Positions 12,738 through 57,638 are shown, numbered from the stretch's first letter. The stretch: 64,000 bases of DNA from Candidatus Woesearchaeota archaeon (GCA_030750765.1 JASMHM010000002.1:62001-126000), one strand, 5' to 3'. The notes: generated by a model not told the origin, from the sequence alone. Numbers and translations are program-made.

Positions 12738-13079
12738 ATGAAGCGCGTGCGGGTAGACAAAGTATTTTCTCCTTTAGAGCATGATGTTTTACAAATCCTT
12801 TGGAGGCAAAAAAGTCTACGCGTGAGACAGATCTTTGACCAGCTAAAAAAGAAAAGAAAAGTAGCCCTATCCTCGGTAGCAGTCATTCTTGATAGATTAC
12901 ACTCCAAAAAGATCGTCACACGTACGATAGAAAAAGCTAGAGGTGGCGTAAGATATGTCTACAGCGTGGCAGAAGAAAAATCACAGTTCGAACAACAGCA
13001 GATAAGCAACGTGGTTGATCAGTTGGTCAAAAAGTTCGGCAACACCGCCGTCGCGTACTTCCAGGAGCGATTCAAATGA
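12738..13079 (+). CDS. BlaI/MecI/CopY-like winged-helix regulator
   Basis: FSPLEHDVLQILWRQKSLRVRQIFDQLKKKRKVALSSVAVILDRLHSKKIVTRTIE. Confidence 0.85.
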   Translation: MKRVRVDKVFSPLEHDVLQILWRQKSLRVRQIFDQLKKKRKVALSSVAVILDRLHSKKIVTRTIEKARGGVRYVYSVAEEKSQFEQQQISNVVDQLVKKFGNTAVAYFQERFK

Positions 13080-13732
13080 TGGAGACAGCAATGTTAGTGG
13101 CAAGCATCTTAGCAGCTTTGTTGTTCTTTTGGTTGTGGAAGCGAACACGAAGCGTGTGGCTAGCGTATGCACACCTAAGCATGCTCACTTTTACCGGCTT
13201 TATTCTTTCCTTACAATCCTACTGCGCCTGGAGCGGAAACGCCTTAGGCATGTGCACTTGGCTCGTGAGCAAAATCTTAGGGTATGGCGTGCCCATCGCT
13301 GTAGTACTCGCCTTTGTTGTAGGATGGTTGATCCTTCCCTTAATGTACAAAAAAAGATTTGCAGATCTTGGCTTCACACACAAACTGCTCAAGCTAGTAC
13401 CTGGAGCGCGTCTATGGATCGTTGACACGGCAAAACCGTATGCATTCGCACTCAAAAAAGATGTCTTCATAACCGTAGGAATGTTTGACATTCTTACCAT
13501 GAAAGAACAAGAAGCAGTGTTGTTACACGAGTTAGGTCACGTACGACAAAAGACTAGCTTACGAAAGTTCACCACCGCCATCATGAGATTGGTCAGTCCT
13601 ATCAGTGCGTTCTACACTCATAAAGTTCTAAATTCAGAGGAAAAAGATGCGGATGCGTACGCTGCAAGAATGCAAAAAACCAACAAACACGTGCTGAGCG
13701 CAAGAGCAAAGCTCCAAGTTTATAAGGTATGA
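13076..13732 (+). CDS. M56 (BlaR1/MecR1-like) membrane metallopeptidase
   Basis: Multiple TM then AVLLHELGHVRQKT (HExxH); EKDADAYA; overlaps the BlaI-like gene. Confidence 0.85.
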   Translation: MMETAMLVASILAALLFFWLWKRTRSVWLAYAHLSMLTFTGFILSLQSYCAWSGNALGMCTWLVSKILGYGVPIAVVLAFVVGWLILPLMYKKRFADLGFTHKLLKLVPGARLWIVDTAKPYAFALKKDVFITVGMFDILTMKEQEAVLLHELGHVRQKTSLRKFTTAIMRLVSPISAFYTHKVLNSEEKDADAYAARMQKTNKHVLSARAKLQVYKV

Positions 13733-45270: not shown

Positions 45271-47727
45271 ATGCGCGTTGAGGATGGAAAGAAGGTATTT
45301 GGTAACCTGTTTAAGGAAATCCAAAAAGAAGTGATGGGACAAGAAGAAACCATCGCCCAAGTCATGATTAGCCTCATCACAGACAGTCACGCACTCTTAG
45401 AAGGTTTTCCTGGACTAGCAAAGACATTAATGATTAGAACAGTGGCACAACTGGTGGACCTGAAGTTCGCAAGAATCCAAAACACACCCGACCTGATGCC
45501 TTCAGATATTACTGGAACGTATATCATAGAGGAAGCAGGGGGAAAACGCACTTTCAAATTCCAGCCAGGACCCATCTTTGCAAACGTTGTTCTTGCAGAC
45601 GAGATCAACAGAGCAACACCAAAAACACAATCTGCAATGCTTGAAGCAATGCAAGAACGCCAAGTAACCGTAGGTGGAGTTACCTACCCCTTAGAAAGAC
45701 CCTTCTTCGTGTTGGCCACCCAGAATCCCATCGAACAAGAGGGAAGTCTAGCCTTAAGCGAGAGTGTATTCATTAACGGCCAGCTCAAAACAGGCAAAGA
45801 GCTCATCAGCAAACTTACCACCCCTCCCCTTATTGAGGACGAGCGAGGCGTGCGCCTCTATGATATTGACGGTTGGACCATGTGCCTGAACAAGGAAGGC
45901 AAACTTGTCAAGACACCCTGCTATCTGTACACCCTCCCGTATCAAGACGAACACGTAACGGTGAGTACGCGAACAGGAAGAAGTATCACAGTCACCAAAA
46001 ACCATCCCTTCCTAGTAAACGAAAACGGACATATGATCTGGAAAAAGGCCGAAGAGCTGACAAAGGAAGATTATTTGGTCAGTCCCGCTCGTTTGGATGT
46101 TGACGTCGTAGATGCTCCCAAGCACAGCATGACCGCAGGAGTGTCTGAACTGCCGTTTAACGATGATTTCGCGTTCTGGATTGCTTTTGTTCTATCTGAC
46201 GGCAGCATTAATGATAAGAGTGTCCAAGTCTGCCAAAAGAATTATCCTACTGCACTAGATCGTTGGGTAACCATCTCAAACTCATTTGGTTTCAAGACCG
46301 GAGTAAGAACCGACAAGTCAGGGTGCAGGTATGCAACGATCTACTCAAAGTCCCTTGTCCAGTATCTTCAGCAAAGGTTTGATATTAGTATAGGCACAAA
46401 GAAAACGATACCTTCTTGGTTCCTACGCTGGCCACACAACATGCTCAAGGAGTTCGTAAAAACGTTCATTGGATTAGAATCCAGCTACCGAGACAACAGG
46501 ATTACCTTTACCCAGAAGAAGTCGCAAGATGTCAACACGATTTCATATATGCTACTGAGATTGGGTATCCTGAGTTGGATGCGGCATGACGGAAGGGTAT
46601 GGCGGTTGAAAATACAAGGAGAAGACTGCCTCACCTACCTCAGCAAAGTCGGATGGTTAAAACCGACCCCACTTCCTAGCGTTGGCAAAACCACCCACCG
46701 TGTAGTACCGGTAGATAGATCAAGAATCCTTAGGTTGGTTGAGTGTCTTGGCCTCAACAGTTTCCACACGCTCAAGGACAGACAATCAATCACTTCTCGA
46801 TCCTGGTACGGAAGCTACAAAGGAATTAAAGAAGGAGAAACCCTCATGGCCCGAGATAGTCTCCGAGAATTTATTGCGGACATACAAAAAGAGGTCAAAA
46901 CCAGAGAAAAACAAGAGTTCAAACAGAACAGTACAAGTGATGTACGCACATTCGCTGCAGGAATTGGAACACCCATTACTGAGGTTGCTGATGAGCTCAA
47001 ACTTTCAAAATACACCGTAGCGGAGGTCTACGCAGGACGCCAAACTCACCAACAAGTAAGCCAGTGCCTGCTGTCAAAACACCAGAACGTACTGCAAGAA
47101 GCTAGACAGATCCTAGGCTATTGTGAAACACTCCTTAGCACGGACATTTTCTATGATCGTGTGAAAACCATCCATTACACCGAACAAGAACCCATGGCTT
47201 TTGGACTCACCGTGCCAGAAGTGCACAATTATGTTGCGGGATTTGGAGCTTGTGGTATCAACAAGAATACATACCCGTTACCAGAAGCACAAGCAGACAG
47301 ATTCTTACTCAAGATACTCGTGGGCTACCCATCCTTTGAAGAAGAGTTAGAGATAGTGGAAAAGTACGCAGAAGACGTTAAACCTCCCGTACTCAAGCCA
47401 GTCTTAACAAAGAAAGATCTGACAGAGGCCCAAGCATTGTGCAGACAGATTCCAGTAGCAACAGACATGAAAAAGTATGCCGTAACTCTTGTGGATAACA
47501 CAAGAAAAAAGAAAGATCTTATCGAGTTTGGTGCTTCACCCAGAGCAAGCATAGGATTGGTGCTAGCAGCCAAAGCACGAGCACTCCTTGCAGGCAGAAA
47601 GTACGTAGTCAAGGAAGATATTAACGCGGTAGCATTACCCGTACTAAGACACCGAATCATTCTCACGTTTGAGGCAGAAAGACAAAATATGAATTCCGAT
47701 GACGTGATCAAAAAGCTTTTGCGATGA
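45271..47727 (+). CDS. MoxR-family AAA+ ATPase interrupted by an intein
   Basis: [56 protein letters not shown] | intein | [16 protein letters not shown]. Confidence 0.95.
45745..47268 (+). other. Intein (508 aa, Ser1...Lys-Asn / Thr+1) with LAGLIDADG-type endonuclease region
   Basis: Insertion between NPIEQEG and [12 protein letters not shown]; block [14 protein letters not shown], block [14 protein letters not shown]-like [15 protein letters not shown]-terminal block [17 protein letters not shown]. Confidence 0.93.
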
Positions 47728-48603: not shown

Positions 48604-49824
48604 TCAAGTGGCATTCACCGCGAATGTGGAAAAGGGAAGCACATTTTGTAGCAATTTATCTTCATCCACTCTCGGTTTCTTTCCCACAAAGGCGTGGTTT
48701 CTTCCAACAATTATTGCTGTTTTCTTAAAACCATGATCACGCATAATTGCAGGGATGGTTTCTTGCCATGCATCATTTCTCTTGTTACCTGTGTATTCGT
48801 TATCACGTGCTAGAAGATCTTCATACTGTTGTAGCAATGTTGCTCTATGCTCTCTTAACTCGGATTGATTGCGTAAAGGTTCCTTAATCGGGCATTGTGC
48901 GCCAAATTGTTCATGATGTTTGTCGTGCCAATAATGAAAACCTTTAGAAGTATCATGCTCGGCATTAATGTCGTGTGCAGTAACAAAATCATAAGGACAG
49001 AAATGTGGCAGGTCCACGTCTCCATTTCTCTCTCTTGTACGATTCAAAACTTCCTCAAGAGCGTCCATAGTGATTTTGGGAAACTTATGGAATCTATGGA
49101 TGCCTCCTTTTCTTTTTGTAAGTTGTAGTATGTTGAACAGTGCGTGAACATACAAATCCACAGCCCGCGTCTTTAGAAAGACATCTTTATCTTCAATACC
49201 AAAAGTCGGCAAGATTTTTTGATCATACAAATCCGCATACTCTACAGGATTGATTCTTTGGACAAGATTTTCCCCAAAAATAACAGAACCATCCTCCCGT
49301 TTCACAAAAGAACCATCAGCATTTGTGAGTGGTTGGTGGCCGCCAGGGCATTCTACAAAAGTGTCTCCCAGGTGTGTCCTAACCACCTCATCTGTCTGTT
49401 GTACTAACGTAGTAGAAGGATCGCCAATATATCCTTCAACTGCTACCGAATCAAATCCATAGTGAGACGCAAGTCTGTCTACTAGCGGACGTACGCCTCT
49501 AGGAGAGGTAACATGGTCTTCGGCAAACACTATTGCTTCTTCAGCAGTTCCTTTTTGCGTAAGATTTTGTACTGAGAATCCTCTACGTGTTGTTTGTGCA
49601 GGAAATCCACGATAATTTAATTTTACTGGCATCCCCATAACTGTGGTTGTCGGCGTGTTTTTCTCGTTAAAAATTTGGGCTATCGAATACTGTTGTGTTG
49701 CTGCACGCTTACCTGTTTTGAAATCTTTAGCAGCTTGTTGTCTAACTAGTGTGCATCCAAAGCCCCCCAAACTACCTAATATGCCCAAAGCTCCTGTTTT
49801 ACAAAGGTTTCTTCGATTTAACAC
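48604..49824 (-). CDS. Exported TraB/ChaN/erythromycin-esterase-like hypothetical protein
   Basis: N-terminal NRRNLCKTGALGILGSLGGFGC (Tat/lipobox-like); AIVFAEDHVTSPRGVRPLVDRLASHYGFDSVAVEGYIG; AIIVGRNHAFVGKKP. Confidence 0.5.
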   Translation of the reverse strand: MLNRRNLCKTGALGILGSLGGFGCTLVRQQAAKDFKTGKRAATQQYSIAQIFNEKNTPTTTVMGMPVKLNYRGFPAQTTRRGFSVQNLTQKGTAEEAIVFAEDHVTSPRGVRPLVDRLASHYGFDSVAVEGYIGDPSTTLVQQTDEVVRTHLGDTFVECPGGHQPLTNADGSFVKREDGSVIFGENLVQRINPVEYADLYDQKILPTFGIEDKDVFLKTRAVDLYVHALFNILQLTKRKGGIHRFHKFPKITMDALEEVLNRTRERNGDVDLPHFCPYDFVTAHDINAEHDTSKGFHYWHDKHHEQFGAQCPIKEPLRNQSELREHRATLLQQYEDLLARDNEYTGNKRNDAWQETIPAIMRDHGFKKTAIIVGRNHAFVGKKPRVDEDKLLQNVLPFSTFAVNAT

Positions 49825-49904: not shown

Positions 49905-52067
49905 TTAAATTTTCACTCTTTTTAGCAACAAACTGCTCGTCACCACGCTTATACTACTTAGCGCCATGGCTGCTCCTGCAATCATAGGATTCAGCAACCA
50001 TCCTGTGAACGGATACAGAACGCCTGCAGCTAGAGGTATGGCAAGAACATTGTACCCCATTGCCCACAAAAGGTTTTCTCCAATCTTATGCATGGTGTGC
50101 GTGCTCAACCGCATAACTCTTACCACGTCTCTCAGATCATCCCGTACGAGCACAATGTCTCCGGATTCTCGAGCGATATCAGTACCACTACCTACGGCAA
50201 TACCTACATCTGCTTGAGTCAGAGCAGGTGCGTCATTAACGCCATCTCCAACCATAGCAACCTTTCCTTTCTTTTGTAGTTCCTTTATGGCGTTTGCCTT
50301 CTCTTGTGGCATTACCTCTGTAACCACGTGATCAATCATGAGTTGCGCACCGATAGCTCGGCCGGTTCTTTCGTTATCTCCCGTAATCATCACGACCTTT
50401 TTGCCTTCTTCCTTCAGCCCATCTATAACTTCGCTTGCTCGGAAGCGTACGGTGTCTGCTACAGCGATCAATCCTAAGACCTTGTTGTGAGCCAGAACCA
50501 TAACTGTCTTGCCTTTGTCTTCCAAGGCAGCAATCTTATCTTTGTACTCCTCGTACGGGATCTTTCGTGCTTTCAACATTCTCAAACTACCCAACACGTA
50601 CTGCTTCCCTTGCATGGTTGCTTGCACCCCTTTCCCCACCACCGCTCTAAACTCTTTGGGGGTGGAGGTCTTGATTTTGGATCGTCTGGCTTTTTCCACG
50701 ACTGCTTTGGCAAGAGGGTGCTCGCTCTGGTTTTCTAGACTGGCAGCAATGCGAATCACTTCTGCTTCCTTAACTGCCCCTGCAACAACATCAGTCACTT
50801 CTGGCTTTCCTGTAGTCAGCGTGCCTGTCTTATCAAATACGACTGTTTGGACTTGGTACATATTTTGGAAGGCTGCAGCACTCTTTACTAGAATACCGTT
50901 CTGCGCTCCTTTGCCTGTGGCAACAACAATAGCAGTAGGTACTGCTAGCCCGATAGCACAAGGACAAGCTATAATCAAGACACTAATGAGTATGGTTAGC
51001 GCGAAGGAAAACGGTTGGCCAAAGCCGTACCAAATGATGGCGGCAGCAAAGGCCATGCCCACTATAACAGGAACAAAAATCTTGGCAACCCTGTCTGCAT
51101 GATTTTGGATGGGTGGTTTGCTGTTTTGTGCTTGCTCCACCATCTCAATGATGTGTGCGAGCATGGTATGCTTGCCAACAGCAGTAGCTTTCATGGTAAA
51201 AGAACCTTCTTTGTTCAAGGTGGCACCAATAACTTTGTCTCCTTTCAATTTATCTTTAGGCATGCTCTCTCCTGTCACCATGCTCTCATCTATGCTGCTC
51301 TGTCCTTCAAGAATAACCCCATCTACAGGCACCTTCTGTCCTGGCTTTACGATAAGCGTGTCACCTTGGACGACTTCAGAAAGTGGAACCTCCACCTGTT
51401 TCTTGTTCTTGATAACTATAGCTATGGGAGGTGCCAGATTCATCATCTTCTCTATTGCCCCGCCGGTCTTTCTTCTTGCTCCTGCCTCCAAGTATCTTCC
51501 TAGTAAGATGAACGTAATCAAGACGCCTGCAGTCTCATAATACAAGTCACTAAATCCGTAGCCAGGCATGCCCAACCAGATACCGATGCTTGCCGCAAGA
51601 CTGTAAACAAAGGCAGCGCCAGTACCTAGGGCTACTAAGGTGTCCATGCTCGCTCCATTCTTGAGCTTAAATCCTGTCTTGTAGAAACTTCTGCCTGCGT
51701 AGATTATAGGGAGCGTAAGGAGCAACTGTACTAGTGCAAGATTCTGTCCCACCCAATAAGGCAAGCCCAAGCCGAGGTGTGGACCCATCGCAACGATCAG
51801 CAAAGGGATGGCAAACACGATGCTCAGTGTGAGACGACGCTTCAAACCTCGGTCTTCACTATCATGACCTCCCACGCCGTATCCTAAACTAGTCACAATC
51901 TTGTGTAAGTCTTCCACAGGCAGTAACTTATCCGCGGTTATGGTGGCCGAGGACGTAGCAAAGTTTACAGCAGCTTTCTGAACGCCACGATGAGCGGTCA
52001 AGGCTTTCTCTATCGTGCCTGCACAGCTCACACAGTGCATGCCTTTGATACGAATGACCCTATCCAT
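49905..52067 (-). CDS. copA: Copper-translocating P1B-type ATPase
   Basis: HMA GMHCVSCAGTIE; ACPCAIGLAVPTA; VVFDKTGTLT; MVGDGVNDAPAL. Confidence 0.95.
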   Translation of the reverse strand: MDRVIRIKGMHCVSCAGTIEKALTAHRGVQKAAVNFATSSATITADKLLPVEDLHKIVTSLGYGVGGHDSEDRGLKRRLTLSIVFAIPLLIVAMGPHLGLGLPYWVGQNLALVQLLLTLPIIYAGRSFYKTGFKLKNGASMDTLVALGTGAAFVYSLAASIGIWLGMPGYGFSDLYYETAGVLITFILLGRYLEAGARRKTGGAIEKMMNLAPPIAIVIKNKKQVEVPLSEVVQGDTLIVKPGQKVPVDGVILEGQSSIDESMVTGESMPKDKLKGDKVIGATLNKEGSFTMKATAVGKHTMLAHIIEMVEQAQNSKPPIQNHADRVAKIFVPVIVGMAFAAAIIWYGFGQPFSFALTILISVLIIACPCAIGLAVPTAIVVATGKGAQNGILVKSAAAFQNMYQVQTVVFDKTGTLTTGKPEVTDVVAGAVKEAEVIRIAASLENQSEHPLAKAVVEKARRSKIKTSTPKEFRAVVGKGVQATMQGKQYVLGSLRMLKARKIPYEEYKDKIAALEDKGKTVMVLAHNKVLGLIAVADTVRFRASEVIDGLKEEGKKVVMITGDNERTGRAIGAQLMIDHVVTEVMPQEKANAIKELQKKGKVAMVGDGVNDAPALTQADVGIAVGSGTDIARESGDIVLVRDDLRDVVRVMRLSTHTMHKIGENLLWAMGYNVLAIPLAAGVLYPFTGWLLNPMIAGAAMALSSISVVTSSLLLKRVKI

Positions 52068-52142
52068 GCCCTGCTTTCACGTCTTAGAGTATTTATAGGT
52101 TTCGAGGACAAGACATAAAAGGGGAACAAGTCTTGAAAGATC

Positions 52143-52349
52143 ATGAGATGGATACTCGCGGTAACACTGGCCGCAATGCTTACAGGTTGTGCAGCGCCAC
52201 AAAAGGCGCCTGAGAAAACAAAGCCTCCGAAGCAAGAGCAAAAAAAGGATGAGCCCACCGGCGTCAGTTACGGACCAACCCAATTAGCCTATGAAAGCAA
52301 CGCTTACCTGCCCAGAACACCGGCAAGCCACTACATTCATAAAGTGTGA
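52143..52349 (+). CDS. Small lipoprotein
   Basis: MRWILAVTLAAMLTGCAAPQKAPEKTKPPKQ. Confidence 0.7.
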   Translation: MRWILAVTLAAMLTGCAAPQKAPEKTKPPKQEQKKDEPTGVSYGPTQLAYESNAYLPRTPASHYIHKV

Positions 52350-52384
52350 TCCTTTGTTAAACGATAAATTTATAAACAAAAGCA

Positions 52385-52399
52385 TTACACCTAGTGTAA
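52385..52399. promoter_or_regulatory. Palindromic operator TTACA-CCTAG-TGTAA
   Basis: Perfect palindrome TTACACCTAGTGTAA between a TATA box (atttataaac) and the Shine-Dalgarno/ATG of 52416. Confidence 0.75.
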
Positions 52400-52415
52400 C
52401 ACATAGGAGGAAACA

Positions 52416-52667
52416 ATGAAAGCAATGATTATTATCGGGATTATTATCGCGATCCTAGGAGCAGTCTACGCCATGCTACCTCATGACATGCACCCGCAAC
52501 TAAGCGGAGAGCAGAGCGACAAGATGACTATGGGCGAAGATCATGATGAGGGTATGGCAAATGAAGGCATGGATCACGCCTCTCACGCAAAAAACCAAAC
52601 CTTTGGCTGGGTGATGAGCGTAGTCGGAATCGGCCTCGCGCTCGCTGGCTGGAAAATCTTTTCATGA
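52416..52667 (+). CDS. Met/His-rich two-TM protein
   Basis: MLPHDMHPQLSGEQSDKMTMGEDHDEGMANEGMDHASHAKN loop between two TM helices; AGGAGG Shine-Dalgarno. Confidence 0.75.
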   Translation: MKAMIIIGIIIAILGAVYAMLPHDMHPQLSGEQSDKMTMGEDHDEGMANEGMDHASHAKNQTFGWVMSVVGIGLALAGWKIFS

Positions 52668-53365
52668 AGCACAAGCATACAAAGGGGAAAAAACACTATC
52701 TAGAGGCAGGCATACTTGGTGGGTTAACCGCAATCGTCTGCTGCGTGGCACCTGTGGTGCTCATCATACTTGGTGTGGGAGCGGCAACAGCCATGGCATT
52801 CATGCACGAATTCCACACGCCAGCAGTTGTAGCAGGCATCATTCTCGTATTGTTAGTATCTTTGTACGCAATTAAACAAAAAGCAGGCGTGTGCAACATG
52901 AAAACCATAGGCCAGCACTGGCAGCAGATTGTCTTTGCGTTTGCCATCATGCTCGTAGCCGCGTATGGATTGAACTTCTTCGTTGTAGAACCCATAGCTG
53001 ATGCCGTGTACGGCAATCTTGAGATAGAACAAAAACCACTAGGAAACCTTGTGGAAATGGCAGAAAGCCACGGCATGCCAGAAATGGCAGACATAGAGGT
53101 GGTACCCGAAGGGAAAGGCATCAAACAAGTAACTCTAGAGATTGATGGACTGTACTGCGGCAGTTGTGGACCTGCAATCATGTTTGATCTGAAATCCATC
53201 AGCGGAGTCCAAAACGTAGACAGAGTGGGCAACAAGGCCGTGATCACGTATGATTCGGATGTAACAAGCAAAGATATATTAGTGGCGACTGTTCACACAC
53301 CATACACTGCGTCAATAATAGGTGAAGTATGTATAGATACACATGGATCGGAATCGTCCTGCTAA
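52664..53365 (+). CDS. MerT-like membrane protein with C-terminal heavy-metal-associated domain
   Basis: AGILGGLTAIVCCVAPVVLIILGVGAA (MerT CC-P); C-terminal VTLEIDGLYCGSCGPAIMFDLKSISGVQNVDR. Confidence 0.8.
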   Translation: MKHKHTKGKKHYLEAGILGGLTAIVCCVAPVVLIILGVGAATAMAFMHEFHTPAVVAGIILVLLVSLYAIKQKAGVCNMKTIGQHWQQIVFAFAIMLVAAYGLNFFVVEPIADAVYGNLEIEQKPLGNLVEMAESHGMPEMADIEVVPEGKGIKQVTLEIDGLYCGSCGPAIMFDLKSISGVQNVDRVGNKAVITYDSDVTSKDILVATVHTPYTASIIGEVCIDTHGSESSC

Positions 53366-54207
53366 TACTACCGTTAGCTCTAGCACACTCGGAAGGAGAG
53401 CATCTTTCGGTAGAAGGACAAAATTTTGAACTCATAAACGACGGCAACAGTTTCGGTCTCGTAACCGAATATGAAAATCTCAACGTACAAGCACAGATAA
53501 TGGATGCTGGCGGAAGAGAAATCTTTTACACCGCAGCAAAAGAGTTAAACAAAACGTACTGGATGACGTGGAAAGGAATACCTGGAGACTACCAAATCCA
53601 GTTCATCACACGCATTGATGGCGCTTTGTTAAAGCCAACCTACAACATCACCATCTCACGCCTACCTTGGGAGATCATCCTTTGCGTTCTAGGAATCTTG
53701 TTTGCAGTAGGAAGATGGCGTCTTAAGCGCAAGATGTGGTACGGTTACCCTGTTGCCATCATACTCATCGTGATAGCCATGGGCATCTATCTATATCCCC
53801 CACAGTTGTTGGATTGTGACAAAGAAGGCTGCATGCTCCCTATCCACTGGCACGCGGAACTCAACATTAGCGTTTGTGGTAAAGAAGTATTCTTACCTGA
53901 GGAAGCAGGCGATCTTAACACCCAGCACACCCACAATGATTCTAACAGGCTACACCTGCACGCCATGACCAAAATGAATGGCGAGCAGACAGCGTTGCTC
54001 ACACCAGAGATCCACCATCTAGGGAACGTCTTCCAACAGACAGGTATTGCTTTCAACAGCACCTGCTTTAGCAGTTATTGTAATGGAGATAGCTGCATCG
54101 GCAGTAATCCAGGAAGCTTACGCATGAAAGTCAATGGTGAAGTTAATGCAGAATATGACAAATACGTTTGGATAGACGGTGACGAGATAAGGATTGAGTT
54201 CGGATAA
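53329..54207 (+). CDS. Membrane protein with His-rich exported C-terminal domain
   Basis: Signal peptide, TM hairpin, then HWHAELNISVCGKEVFLPEEAGDLNTQHTHNDSNRLHLHA. Confidence 0.65.
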   Translation: MYRYTWIGIVLLILPLALAHSEGEHLSVEGQNFELINDGNSFGLVTEYENLNVQAQIMDAGGREIFYTAAKELNKTYWMTWKGIPGDYQIQFITRIDGALLKPTYNITISRLPWEIILCVLGILFAVGRWRLKRKMWYGYPVAIILIVIAMGIYLYPPQLLDCDKEGCMLPIHWHAELNISVCGKEVFLPEEAGDLNTQHTHNDSNRLHLHAMTKMNGEQTALLTPEIHHLGNVFQQTGIAFNSTCFSSYCNGDSCIGSNPGSLRMKVNGEVNAEYDKYVWIDGDEIRIEFG

Positions 54208-54209
54208 CT

Positions 54210-54544
54210 TTATGACGCAGGGAATTTCTCGGTTGAGCAAGAGTATCTACCTTTCGCAGGATGCGTGCCCGTATATGATGAACCTGATGCAACACTCACA
54301 AAAACCCTAACATGATCGTGCACGCTAGGAGGTTCCTCATCCTCAGCTATTCTCGAGTGGTAACCACATGAAGGCAAGAATCAGTAGGTTGTTCTTGTGG
54401 TTGGAGTAGAAAGTCTTCACCCGTCTTGGCCATCTCTGTAAGGGTGGAAACACCATGCTCCTTGACTATTCCAGAGTTAGCAGGAATCCAATGTTTACAA
54501 AAAAAGGCATATGATTTCCTAGCAAACGCTTCAGATACGAGCAT
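54210..54544 (-). pseudogene. Frameshifted small protein gene
   Basis: MLVSEAFARKSYAFFCKHWIPANSGIVKEHGVSTLTEMAKTGEDFLLQPQEQPTDSCLHVVTTR continues in the -1 frame as IAEDEEPPSVHDHVRVFVSVASGSSYTGTHPAKGRYSCSTEKFPAS*. Confidence 0.6.
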
Positions 54545-54578
54545 AGGAATAGGGTAACATCTGCCTATAAAAACTTAC

Positions 54579-55493
54579 TCATCTAAGACTCTTATACATA
54601 TACCTTACAAACATAGCCAGGATCACTATCGCGAGTAGCACGGCAAACCAAGAACGAACGCCCGGAAGGACCATAAGCCAATCTTGGGCATCATACAACC
54701 ACTGCACCGTCCAGTCGTACTTCATAAAGAACGTCTCAAAAGGTGAAGTTCCTTTGGCAAGCGCCATTATAGCACCCACCCACAGCAAGAGCAAAGCCCC
54801 AATAATGTTGAAAACAGGTTTTCCCTTCCATTCTAGCTTTGCCAGCTTGTCCAACCAAGAAAGCTTGGAGGCCCTGCTTGCTAACAACACCATAGGGATG
54901 GCCACGCCAACCCCATACAACACCAAAAGCAAGGCGCCGTTGAGCAGCTTGCCACTCATGCTCGCGAGTACGATGATGCCACCAAACACTGGGCCCACAC
55001 AAGGACTCCAGCCAAGAGCAAAGGCAGCTCCCAACAACACAAAACCCCACACACTCTTGGGAACGAACCGCACATGGACTCCCTTGAAACCTTTCCCTAC
55101 GAAGAGCAAGCAAGCAAAAATGATGAGAACAAGCCCTGCGGGTCTGGACATGTTAATCTTGAAAGCGTTAAAGAACGTCCCCACAGAAGCAGCAAGTAGT
55201 CCCAGCAAGGCATACACAACAATCATGCCGACAACAAAAGCAGCAACCCTTTTTCCTGCCTCTCTAGGTTCTGAGAGCACCAAAGAAAGCCATACAGGCA
55301 AGATAGCGAAGGCGCAGGGCGAAACAAAGGTGAGCACCCCAGCAAACAACGCGATTAGCATGGTTAAGCTAAGAGCCGAGGCCTCCTCTGCATCAACAAG
55401 CTTTTGAAGGTTGGGTGGAAGTTGTAACGAATCAAGATCTTGCGCCAATACTACAGGGATTAGCAGCAAAAACAGGAGGACAGACCAACGCAT
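54579..55493 (-). CDS. CcdA/DsbD-like thiol-disulfide membrane transporter
   Basis: SPCAFAILPVWLSLVL and GWSPCVGPVFGGIIVLAS; signal peptide and about 6-8 TM. Confidence 0.9.
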   Translation of the reverse strand: MRWSVLLFLLLIPVVLAQDLDSLQLPPNLQKLVDAEEASALSLTMLIALFAGVLTFVSPCAFAILPVWLSLVLSEPREAGKRVAAFVVGMIVVYALLGLLAASVGTFFNAFKINMSRPAGLVLIIFACLLFVGKGFKGVHVRFVPKSVWGFVLLGAAFALGWSPCVGPVFGGIIVLASMSGKLLNGALLLVLYGVGVAIPMVLLASRASKLSWLDKLAKLEWKGKPVFNIIGALLLLWVGAIMALAKGTSPFETFFMKYDWTVQWLYDAQDWLMVLPGVRSWFAVLLAIVILAMFVRYMYKSLR

Positions 55494-55550
55494 GATTTGA
55501 GCAGAAAGTGGAAGCTATAAAAACATTTGGTTTAATCGACGAGTATTGAT

Positions 55551-55565
55551 TTACAATGGATGTAA
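55551..55565. promoter_or_regulatory. Palindromic operator TTACA-ATGGA-TGTAA
   Basis: TTTACAATGGATGTAAA in the divergent ccdA/55611 intergenic region, just upstream of the TATA box tttatata. Confidence 0.7.
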
Positions 55566-55610
55566 AGCAACCAAAAAGTTTATATACGAGAGCAAGCTCA
55601 CAACCAAACT

Positions 55611-56378
55611 ATGGACGAAGGGCATAAACATAAACATCATGATGGTGTGCACTCCACGCACCACAAAAGCCATCCTAAGAAGGATGACAGAACCATGTTG
55701 TACGTATGCCTCACCGTGGCAGCAGTACTATTATTGTTTAACCAATACCAACTATCACAATTAAGCCAATACGCACCTGCATCCTCAGGATCGTACACGC
55801 CCGGACAAAAAATCAGCCTATCCGGAGGCGACCTAGAAAATGTAAACGTGGAGAATTTGAAAAGCACGGCGCAAACCATTGCCGCGGTGTTTCCATTAGA
55901 CGAAGTAAATTCAGCGCAAGACGCAATCAACATGATGGTACCAACAGGCATTCCATCGTATGGTCAAGAGATGGGCGTGACTTTTGACGACGCACAAGGA
56001 TCCTTAGACGTTATAGCAAAAAAAGTATATTACGAAGAATTAGCACTCATCAAAGCAGAACCCGAAAATTGGGAAAGATACCTACACCTAGCAGCAAGAC
56101 CATCAGGAATTGACTGTGAGTTTTGCTGCGGAATAGGCGCACAAGGCATCACCGCCAATGGAGAGATGAAATGCGGATGCGCACACAACCCAGGACTGTT
56201 AGGACTAACCATGTGGCTGATACGCCACACAGACATGAATGACGGAGAAATCATGAGAGAAGTCATGCTCTGGAAGACATTATGGTTCCCACGAGGCATG
56301 ATTGAAACAGCACTTAAAATTACCGGCGGAGATGCATCCGCATTAGCAGACGCACCCGGAATGGTAGGAGGATGTTAA
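55611..56378 (+). CDS. Membrane-anchored protein with His-rich N terminus, Cys motif and C-terminal PGMVGGC
   Basis: MDEGHKHKHHDGVHSTHHKSHPKK, TM, DCEFCCGIGAQGITANGEMKCGCAHN, ...ADAPGMVGGC. Confidence 0.85.
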   Translation: MDEGHKHKHHDGVHSTHHKSHPKKDDRTMLYVCLTVAAVLLLFNQYQLSQLSQYAPASSGSYTPGQKISLSGGDLENVNVENLKSTAQTIAAVFPLDEVNSAQDAINMMVPTGIPSYGQEMGVTFDDAQGSLDVIAKKVYYEELALIKAEPENWERYLHLAARPSGIDCEFCCGIGAQGITANGEMKCGCAHNPGLLGLTMWLIRHTDMNDGEIMREVMLWKTLWFPRGMIETALKITGGDASALADAPGMVGGC

Positions 56379-56379
56379 C

Positions 56380-56589
56380 ATGGAAATAAACAACAACGTA
56401 ATAATCGCAGTGGTGTTAGGCGTACTCGTCGTCATCGCAGGCGTACAAGCTTTCCAGATGGCAAGCTTGAAAGGTAATGTACAGTCAGGTGGCGGAGCAG
56501 TAGCTCAGCCAGTAGCAAGCGGAGGCGGCGGTGGAGCACAACTACCAAGCAACCTTCAAAACTTGCCAGGAATGGTAGGCGGCTGCTAA
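56380..56589 (+). CDS. Small single-TM protein with C-terminal PGMVGGC
   Basis: MEINNNVIIAVVLGVLVVIAGVQAFQMASLKGNVQSGGGAVAQPVASGGGGGAQLPSNLQNLPGMVGGC. Confidence 0.8.
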   Translation: MEINNNVIIAVVLGVLVVIAGVQAFQMASLKGNVQSGGGAVAQPVASGGGGGAQLPSNLQNLPGMVGGC

Positions 56590-57638
56590 TGACTAAGTGG
56601 AAACAGGTCCACAAATACCTAATGGTGGCCCTGTTTGTACTCTTAGCCATAAATCTCTTTCTGGCCATGAGCAGCACAAAGAAGCTCATGCCTATTCCAG
56701 TAGAGCCCCAAATTCTTAGCTTAACAACAATAACTGTAGATTGTGACGAATGTTTTGACGTAAGCAAAGTCACCACTGCCCTCAAGGAAGGGTCAGGAAT
56801 GATTATCGAAGAAGAGACACTAGCCTGGGAAGACGCAGGAGAGCTAATAACCAAATACAGCATTGAAAGACTGCCCGCAGTAATAGTGAATGGACAAGTC
56901 ATCGACGGCATGGACCAAGTGGAAGGATCAAGCGTGTTCCAAAGCCCACCACCCTACAAAGAAGCCAGCACAAGAAAATTACGAGGCATCGTTGATGCCA
57001 CTATTTTGACTGCAGGATGTGAGGAGTGCACAGATATGAACGATCTAGTAAGTCAGCTCACCCAAGCACAGATCAATTTTGGCGAGATCAAAAGCATACC
57101 TGCAGACGAAGGAGAAGGCAAACTCTTGGTGGACGCACACAATATAGACACATTACCAAGCATAGTGCTGTCAGAAGAAGCAGGCGTGTACGAATTCATC
57201 ACCGAAGTATGGTCAGAAGTAGGAACCTCAGACACCGGAGCATTCGTGTTGCGGAAGATCCCTGCACCGTACGTTAAGGATGGCAGAGTACACGGATTGG
57301 TAGAACTCACCCTCCTAAAAGATGATACCTGTGTGGAATGTTACAACGTAACACTACACCAAGCATTACTAACACAAAACTTTGGGATGAAATTCCAAAA
57401 CGTGGAGTATGTTGACGTGGGAAGCACACGCGGCAAACGCCTAGTAAGCAAGTACGATATTGACAAAGTGCCAACCTACCAGCTAGACAAGGAAGCAGGC
57501 GCGTACGAGCTCCTAGACCAGCTTTGGGGAGACGTAGGTTCTATCGAGGATGGCGTCTACACCTTCCGTAAAGTGGAAGAGCTAGGCATTGCGTACAAGG
57601 ATTTGAAGAATGGTACCGTTATTCAAGCATCGTCTTGA
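56589..57638 (+). CDS. Membrane-anchored protein with three tandem CxxC thioredoxin-like repeats
   Basis: VDCDECFDV, TAGCEECTDM, DDTCVECYNV; repeats 2 and 3 share ID..P...(S/D)(E/K)EAG.YE....W..VG. Confidence 0.85.
   Translation: MTKWKQVHKYLMVALFVLLAINLFLAMSSTKKLMPIPVEPQILSLTTITVDCDECFDVSKVTTALKEGSGMIIEEETLAWEDAGELITKYSIERLPAVIVNGQVIDGMDQVEGSSVFQSPPPYKEASTRKLRGIVDATILTAGCEECTDMNDLVSQLTQAQINFGEIKSIPADEGEGKLLVDAHNIDTLPSIVLSEEAGVYEFITEVWSEVGTSDTGAFVLRKIPAPYVKDGRVHGLVELTLLKDDTCVECYNVTLHQALLTQNFGMKFQNVEYVDVGSTRGKRLVSKYDIDKVPTYQLDKEAGAYELLDQLWGDVGSIEDGVYTFRKVEELGIAYKDLKNGTVIQASS

Follow-up and report, generated by a model that had tools for sequence, protein, structure and literature searches.

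The described systems that come closest to the genes reported here are the TlpA/Sco/PCuAC pathway with its CcdA-type donor, the bacterial cop/cut islands with CopA and DUF411 (which we take to be the CopG family), the CopY/BlaI repressors paired with an M56 (BlaR1) metalloprotease, and the MerT-HMA and MerTP fusions. TlpA reduces the cysteines of CuA before metallation, and CopG, with its CxCC motif, is a Cu4-cluster protein that serves anaerobic copper resistance (review, PMC7558416). Here we describe a group of genes at positions 49905-57638 of a 64,000-nucleotide stretch (the window) from Candidatus Woesearchaeota archaeon (GCA_030750765.1, JASMHM010000002.1:62001-126000; G000:C9:62001-126000 in our collection), an organism with a genome of 1.14 Mb. 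The gene set is previously undescribed and occurs across many lineages of DPANN archaea. Judged by sequence, its conserved core consists of the genes that we name GGC255, GGC69 and 3CXXC, together with CcdA.

The locus resembles each of the known systems in part. As in the TlpA/Sco/PCuAC pathway, it encodes a membrane-anchored thioredoxin of the kind that reduces extracellular copper-binding thiols, and CuA proteins are found in some of the module operons. However, no Sco or PCuAC was recognised at module loci, the thioredoxin is triple, most carriers have no detectable CuA, and the pair of GGC255 and GGC69 with their shared C-terminal tail, MVGGC, has no counterpart there. Like cop/cut islands, a number of MVGGC loci have CopA and DUF411 together, whereas a multicopper oxidase of the CueO kind and CusCBA were not recognised at module loci, the core is unrelated to named copper proteins, and the host genome is without DUF411. 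The CopY/BlaI operator has the same half-sites as the TTACA...TGTAA palindromes of this locus (PMC7253601), and a pair of repressor and metalloprotease is present in both cases, but the spacer is five bases here instead of two and these BlaI proteins are without the CxC copper motifs that CopY has at its C-terminus. The protein encoded from 52664 shares with the MerT fusions a CC pair in the first transmembrane (TM) segment and a C-terminal HMA-like domain; it differs in staying below curated cut-offs, in having a fixed neighbour (MH2TM), and in that no mercuric reductase was noticed.

The conserved core and its C-terminal tail

GGC255 and GGC69 are unrelated proteins that both terminate in PGMVGGC. 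When MVGGC followed by a stop codon was searched for with a codon-degenerate DNA pattern, the host genome was matched exactly twice, in the genes for GGC255 and GGC69. Within the order, 118 of 353 genomes had the pattern, while the reversed pattern, used as the control, gave 3 matches in the whole set; the tail is therefore more common than chance allows. All but about nine of the 118 carriers had at least two matches, mostly close together on the same strand, and a phylum-wide sample had the pattern in 76 of 279 genomes. In 251 distinct tails ending in MVGGC, all four valine codons and all four glycine codons were used freely at each position, which indicates that selection acts on the peptide. 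The residues upstream loosened to LPx in these tails, and distant variants were few (QVGGC, NTGGC). A literature search for "MVGGC" turned up only unrelated uses. An earlier note on this DNA, made from the sequence alone, had seen the mini-protein with a GGC tail and missed the same MVGGC ending on the 255-residue protein beside it.

The core genes were strongly linked in related genomes. Among 96 relatives, the genomes bearing GGC255 and those with the MVGGC-stop were identical sets of 33 each, and 3CXXC was present in 27 of these 33 (p 3e-9; the genomes behind this and the other p-values are not independent, and a 70-genome subset with one genome per family retains the signal). At 77 loci with MVGGC genes we counted GGC255 77 times, GGC69 74 times, 3CXXC 43 times and CcdA 42 times. 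The order GGC255, GGC69, 3CXXC, CcdA recurred across 80 named genome loci, and GGC69, 3CXXC, CcdA was the commonest order downstream of GGC255. Junctions are tight in the window, with one base between GGC255 and GGC69 and a TAATG overlap between GGC69 and 3CXXC. Named records with the module belong to Woesearchaeota, Pacearchaeota, Aenigmatarchaeota, Diapherotrites, Micrarchaeota, Altiarchaeota and Nanoanaerosalina. Within the genus, the sister species is the record Candidatus Woesearchaeota archaeon ARS49. Two metagenome-assembled genomes labelled Patescibacteria (G466 and G467; loci L212 and L243) had two MVGGC tails each and no archaeal ribosomal protein S8e. They may reflect either transfer to bacteria or mis-binned contigs. 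A third carrier labelled "bacterium" (L174) was archaeal by its S8e. Within the collection of viral contigs searched, GGC255 had no relative and so gave no sign of being a viral gene.

GGC255 has a site of cysteines and a histidine, C169xxC172C173...C188xC190xH192. Across 70 aligned members, the invariant columns were these six residues, G113, P115, P227 and the tail, of which only the non-tail columns are independent since the members had been picked by their tail. Neither Pfam nor NCBIfam gave a match to GGC255, the 70 members searched singly against Pfam yielded only scattered matches at chance level, and a profile search of PDB sequences returned only weak leucine-rich-repeat noise. Domain searches were also without a match for GGC69 and for the HWH protein, whose gene starts at 53329. 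The AlphaFold2 model of GGC255 was all-helical, with a predicted local distance difference test (pLDDT) score of 86 and a core above 95, and Foldseek found no PDB fold at E<=0.001. Residues 241-250 had a pLDDT of 92 and residues 251-255 one of 77, so the tail is probably ordered. The Cys/His site is retained in GGC255 paralogues without the tail, and MVGGC is invariant throughout the GGC69 family. Membership of GGC255 in the Pfam family PCYCGC was considered, but no Pfam match appeared across the 70 members.

The electron-transfer genes belong to established families. CcdA scored 45.7 bits against PF02683 (cut-off 27.1), and its redox cysteines C60 and C165 were kept in 98% of 46 relatives. 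In 3CXXC, the pairs C52/55, C144/147 and C248/251 were invariant in 39 relatives, and each is followed after 44-47 residues by a conserved proline, as in thioredoxins; domain 1 matched Thioredoxin_3 (PF13192) at 28.6 bits (cut-off 24.8). The earlier description of a triple CxxC protein was thus well founded.

Several further observations concern the tail and GGC255. About 20 loci had, near GGC69, a member of a small lipoprotein family (cluster 64, e.g. L064:6874-7083 and L149:8969-9178) with a conserved internal VGGGCGV, which resembles MVGGC. At MVGGC loci, another Cys tail, CC[KR]x(W), is shared by two more unrelated families, one soluble and of 160 residues, the other a small membrane protein (clusters c49 and c45; L057, L060, L137, L144, L147, L158 and others); CC stands near the end in 19 of 20 members of the former and in 12 of 14 of the latter. 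In 7 loci, several of them on short contigs, GGC255 formed a fusion with a membrane protein that has a GCPSCG motif, and CcdA was near none of these. The archaeon GW2011_AR15 (L148, L202) encodes a very distant GGC255-like protein of 200 residues with the motif PCCCKCWHWY, which suggests a wider Cys-rich superfamily.

Candidate operator, copper genes and the accessory half

Every open reading frame (ORF) that the earlier note had listed for 49905-57638 was present, and the features are collected in Table 1. The palindrome TTACA-N5-TGTAA occurs twice in the 64 kb, compared with 0.14 expected. At 132 distinct related loci it was found 31 times (4.8 expected; other spacings at most 4 each), and there it precedes GGC255 (14) and BlaI genes (9). 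The same palindrome stands ahead of both halves of the island, and hence the halves are probably one regulon. The note had read the genes from CopA to the triple CxxC protein as a single trafficking or reduction pathway. The outcome that it named as a refutation, genes that do not co-occur in related genomes, was not what we observed. Co-occurrence and the shared palindrome favour one regulated unit, while an integrated function is something that we infer. The borders had to be redrawn around the core, with 52416 and 52664 as rarer accessory genes at the same loci, preceded by the same operator-like palindrome.

Table 1. Features of the window, with positions counted from its first nucleotide
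Feature	Position	Strand	Basis or remark
Candidate regulator, BlaI/MecI-type winged-helix repressor	12738..13079	+	PF03965 2.1e-16
Candidate sensor partner, BlaR1-like/M56-like metallopeptidase	13076..13732	+	ORF; HELGH motif
CopA, copper-translocating P1B-type ATPase, N-terminal HMA	49905..52067	-	TIGR01511, CPC motif
Small predicted lipoprotein	52143..52349	+	Membership in module doubtful
Operator-like palindrome TTACA-CCTAG-TGTAA	52385..52399		Upstream of 52416
MH2TM, two-TM Met/His-rich protein	52416..52667	+	Accessory
MerT-like membrane protein, C-terminal HMA-like domain (CxxC)	52664..53365	+	Accessory
HWH protein	53329..54207	+	Accessory; signal peptide, predicted beta-sandwich domain, two TM, His-rich domain
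CcdA, transmembrane thiol electron carrier	54579..55493	-	PF02683
Operator-like palindrome TTACA-ATGGA-TGTAA	55551..55565		Between divergent ccdA and GGC255 genes
GGC255	55611..56378	+	His-rich cytosolic N-terminus, TM, all-helical domain, C-terminal MVGGC
MVGGC-stop of GGC255	56361..56378	+	
GGC69	56380..56589	+	TM anchor, flexible Gly/Ser/Ala linker, LPGMVGGC tail
MVGGC-stop of GGC69	56572..56589	+	
3CXXC	56589..57638	+	TM anchor, three thioredoxin-like domains, one CxxC each

Strong BlaI matches were found in 19 of the 96 relatives, 18 of them with GGC255 and often on the same contig. Genes related to the protease at 13076 match both M48 and M56 at other loci. A general CxxC in the M56 sensor was considered and dropped because only some members carry it. 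Membrane-bound DUF7343 winged-helix regulators (cluster 74, e.g. L057:8696-9253 and L128:7571-8062) are frequent at MVGGC loci (37 of the 77). Several of them have a Cys-Pro between the two TM segments. These regulators are a possible alternative sensor.

The other partners at the 77 loci were an AHCPLCT membrane protein (29), DUF411, cupredoxins and a thioredoxin-like protein (24 each), and HWH (22). DUF411 was present in 18 of the 96 relatives, and 17 of these also carry GGC255 (p 5e-9), which makes 17 of the 33 GGC255 genomes. CopA was found in 30 of the 33 GGC255 carriers compared with 34 of the 63 others (p 2e-4).

Of the families that had been called established, CopA (604.9 bits for TIGR01511, whose cut-off is 397; HMA 57.4 bits) and CcdA are well above their cut-offs. 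The protein at 52664 has a genuine resemblance to MerT that stays below the cut-off (PF02411, 19.1 bits, cut-off 32.9), and its C-terminal HMA domain falls just short (PF00403, 24.5 bits, cut-off 24.8); the CGSC of that domain is present in most relatives. MH2TM overlaps this gene by ATGA and adjoins it in 6 of the genomes inspected, and full-length relatives of the 52664 protein occur in 7; these loci had been sampled by the presence of GGC255. The His-rich domain of the HWH protein, noted before for its HWH/HTHND/HLHA motifs, held up well, as H173, H175, H200 and H209 were invariant in 42 relatives. The AlphaFold2 model of this protein had no PDB match at E<=0.001 (Foldseek), and its N-terminal domain was only fibronectin-III-like. 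At the loci inspected, the only relatives of the lipoprotein at 52143-52349 were in the sister species, and it therefore lies outside anything conserved. Next to CopA, a 406-residue protein with an N-terminal signal (48604-49824) likewise had relatives only in the sister species at these loci. Further away, 45271-47727 is the ORF of a MoxR-type AAA ATPase with an apparent intein, inserted after EQEG and before TYPLPEAQ; the next gene is vWA/DUF58-like.

A proposed copper(I)/thiol relay and the alternatives

We suggest that DPANN archaea use the module as an inducible copper(I)/thiol relay at the cell surface, and we give this reading a probability of about one half. Its footing in the sequence is the set of genes present, their order and co-occurrence, the invariant residues and the enrichment of the operator. 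The fusions of GGC255 to GCPSCG proteins at loci with no CcdA nearby also count in its favour, and CopG and TlpA offer precedents. In such a relay, CcdA would move electrons outward across the membrane to 3CXXC, which would in turn hold the Cys/His cluster of GGC255 and both MVGGC tails in the reduced state; thiol reduction by CcdA and 3CXXC follows from the established families to which both belong. GGC255 would bind a soft metal at CxxCC...CxCxH, most likely Cu(I), as the association with copper genes suggests. The MVGGC tail might then dock at this site, in cis for GGC255 and in trans for GGC69, whose long flexible linker would make it a thiol on a tether. Docking would complete the site, or would hand copper or electrons to partners that depend on the lineage, such as CopG/DUF411, CuA cupredoxins, MerT-HMA and HWH proteins, and CopA. 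The BlaI-type repressor and BlaR1-like protease would probably control both halves, with BlaI binding to the TTACA-N5-TGTAA sites.

The docking hypothesis is consistent with the tail order in the AlphaFold2 model, with co-occurrence and with the tail-less paralogues. In two genomes (G005 and G020), GGC255 is tail-less and the sole MVGGC of the genome sits on GGC69, which fits docking in trans. We propose, quite tentatively, that GGC255 is a metalloprotein of a new fold whose site is completed or gated by MVGGC, which the protein itself would supply in cis and the tethered mini-protein in trans.

Several points weigh against the relay to some extent. 3CXXC and CcdA were absent near about 40% of the loci, part of which are contig ends. 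The p-values are optimistic because related genomes share ancestry. The sites found here do not have the TACA-N2-TGTA spacing of the CopY/BlaI operator. The total conservation of the valine and of Gly-Gly goes beyond the demands of a metal ligand and could instead reflect an enzyme that recognises the tail. The host genome itself has no match to DUF411 (PF04214) or to COX2/CuA, so that the module here is more likely to serve copper handling in general than the assembly of CuA.

It is conceivable that no metal is involved and that CcdA, 3CXXC, GGC255 and GGC69 form a thiol cascade reducing disulfides in exported proteins, with the copper genes as neighbours because copper oxidises thiols. CcdA and the three-CxxC thioredoxin are indeed the most frequent partners, and extra thioredoxin and DsbA-like genes occur at the loci. 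However, CxxCC...CxCxH is typical of metal sites and unlike a CxxC redox pair, DUF411 is nearly restricted to GGC255 genomes, and many loci at the class level keep DUF411 without CcdA and 3CXXC, so we consider this cascade rather unlikely. The invariance of all five residues, including the valine, on two unrelated proteins that are both predicted to face outward would also suit a tail recognised by an enzyme of post-translational modification, such as one that adds a lipid or makes another attachment to the C-terminal cysteine and so fixes both proteins at the surface. This we regard as improbable, since at most loci the pair is not accompanied by a dedicated enzyme, each of the two proteins has a TM anchor of its own, and GGC255 paralogues without the tail exist.

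Maturation of CuA-type cupredoxins is a further alternative, in which 3CXXC would reduce the CuA cysteines and GGC255 and GGC69 would load copper as an analogue of TlpA/Sco/PCuAC. CuA cupredoxins (CxxxCGxGHxxM) are found between 3CXXC and CcdA in several operons and lineages, CuA proteins are present at 25 of the 49 cupredoxin-bearing loci, CuA/COX2 is enriched in GGC255 carriers (13 of 33, compared with 7 of 63 others; p 0.003), and DPANN CuA proteins have been reported from oxygen-deficient zones (PMC10936187). As a general role it is contradicted by the GGC255 carriers without CuA, which number 20 of the 33 and include the host, and it seems to us quite improbable. The earlier note had left the choice between copper and mercury open. 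CopA, DUF411/CopG, the cupredoxins and the CuA proteins found at the loci speak for copper. Nothing specific points to mercury: MerA and MerB were not noticed in the local gene clusters, and the MerT match was below the cut-off. Resistance to mercury, silver, arsenic or another soft metal or metalloid would account for the MerT-like and HMA-like domains at 52664, but MerT-HMA is rare at the loci and the neighbours are copper families, so that we think it very unlikely.

Meaning for DPANN archaea

If the new-fold reading of GGC255 with its docking tail is true, it would be a plug-and-socket transfer of Cu(I) or electrons between membrane proteins that is ancient in DPANN and perhaps shared with some Patescibacteria. 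DPANN archaea are reduced, most of them have not been cultured, and little of their surface biochemistry has been named. The module, with its absolutely conserved tail, provides a handle on how these archaea handle copper and keep extracellular thiols reduced. Ultra-small cells coated with Cu2O were described in a chimney dominated by Pacearchaeota (PMC9209642), and the module may have a bearing on such cells.

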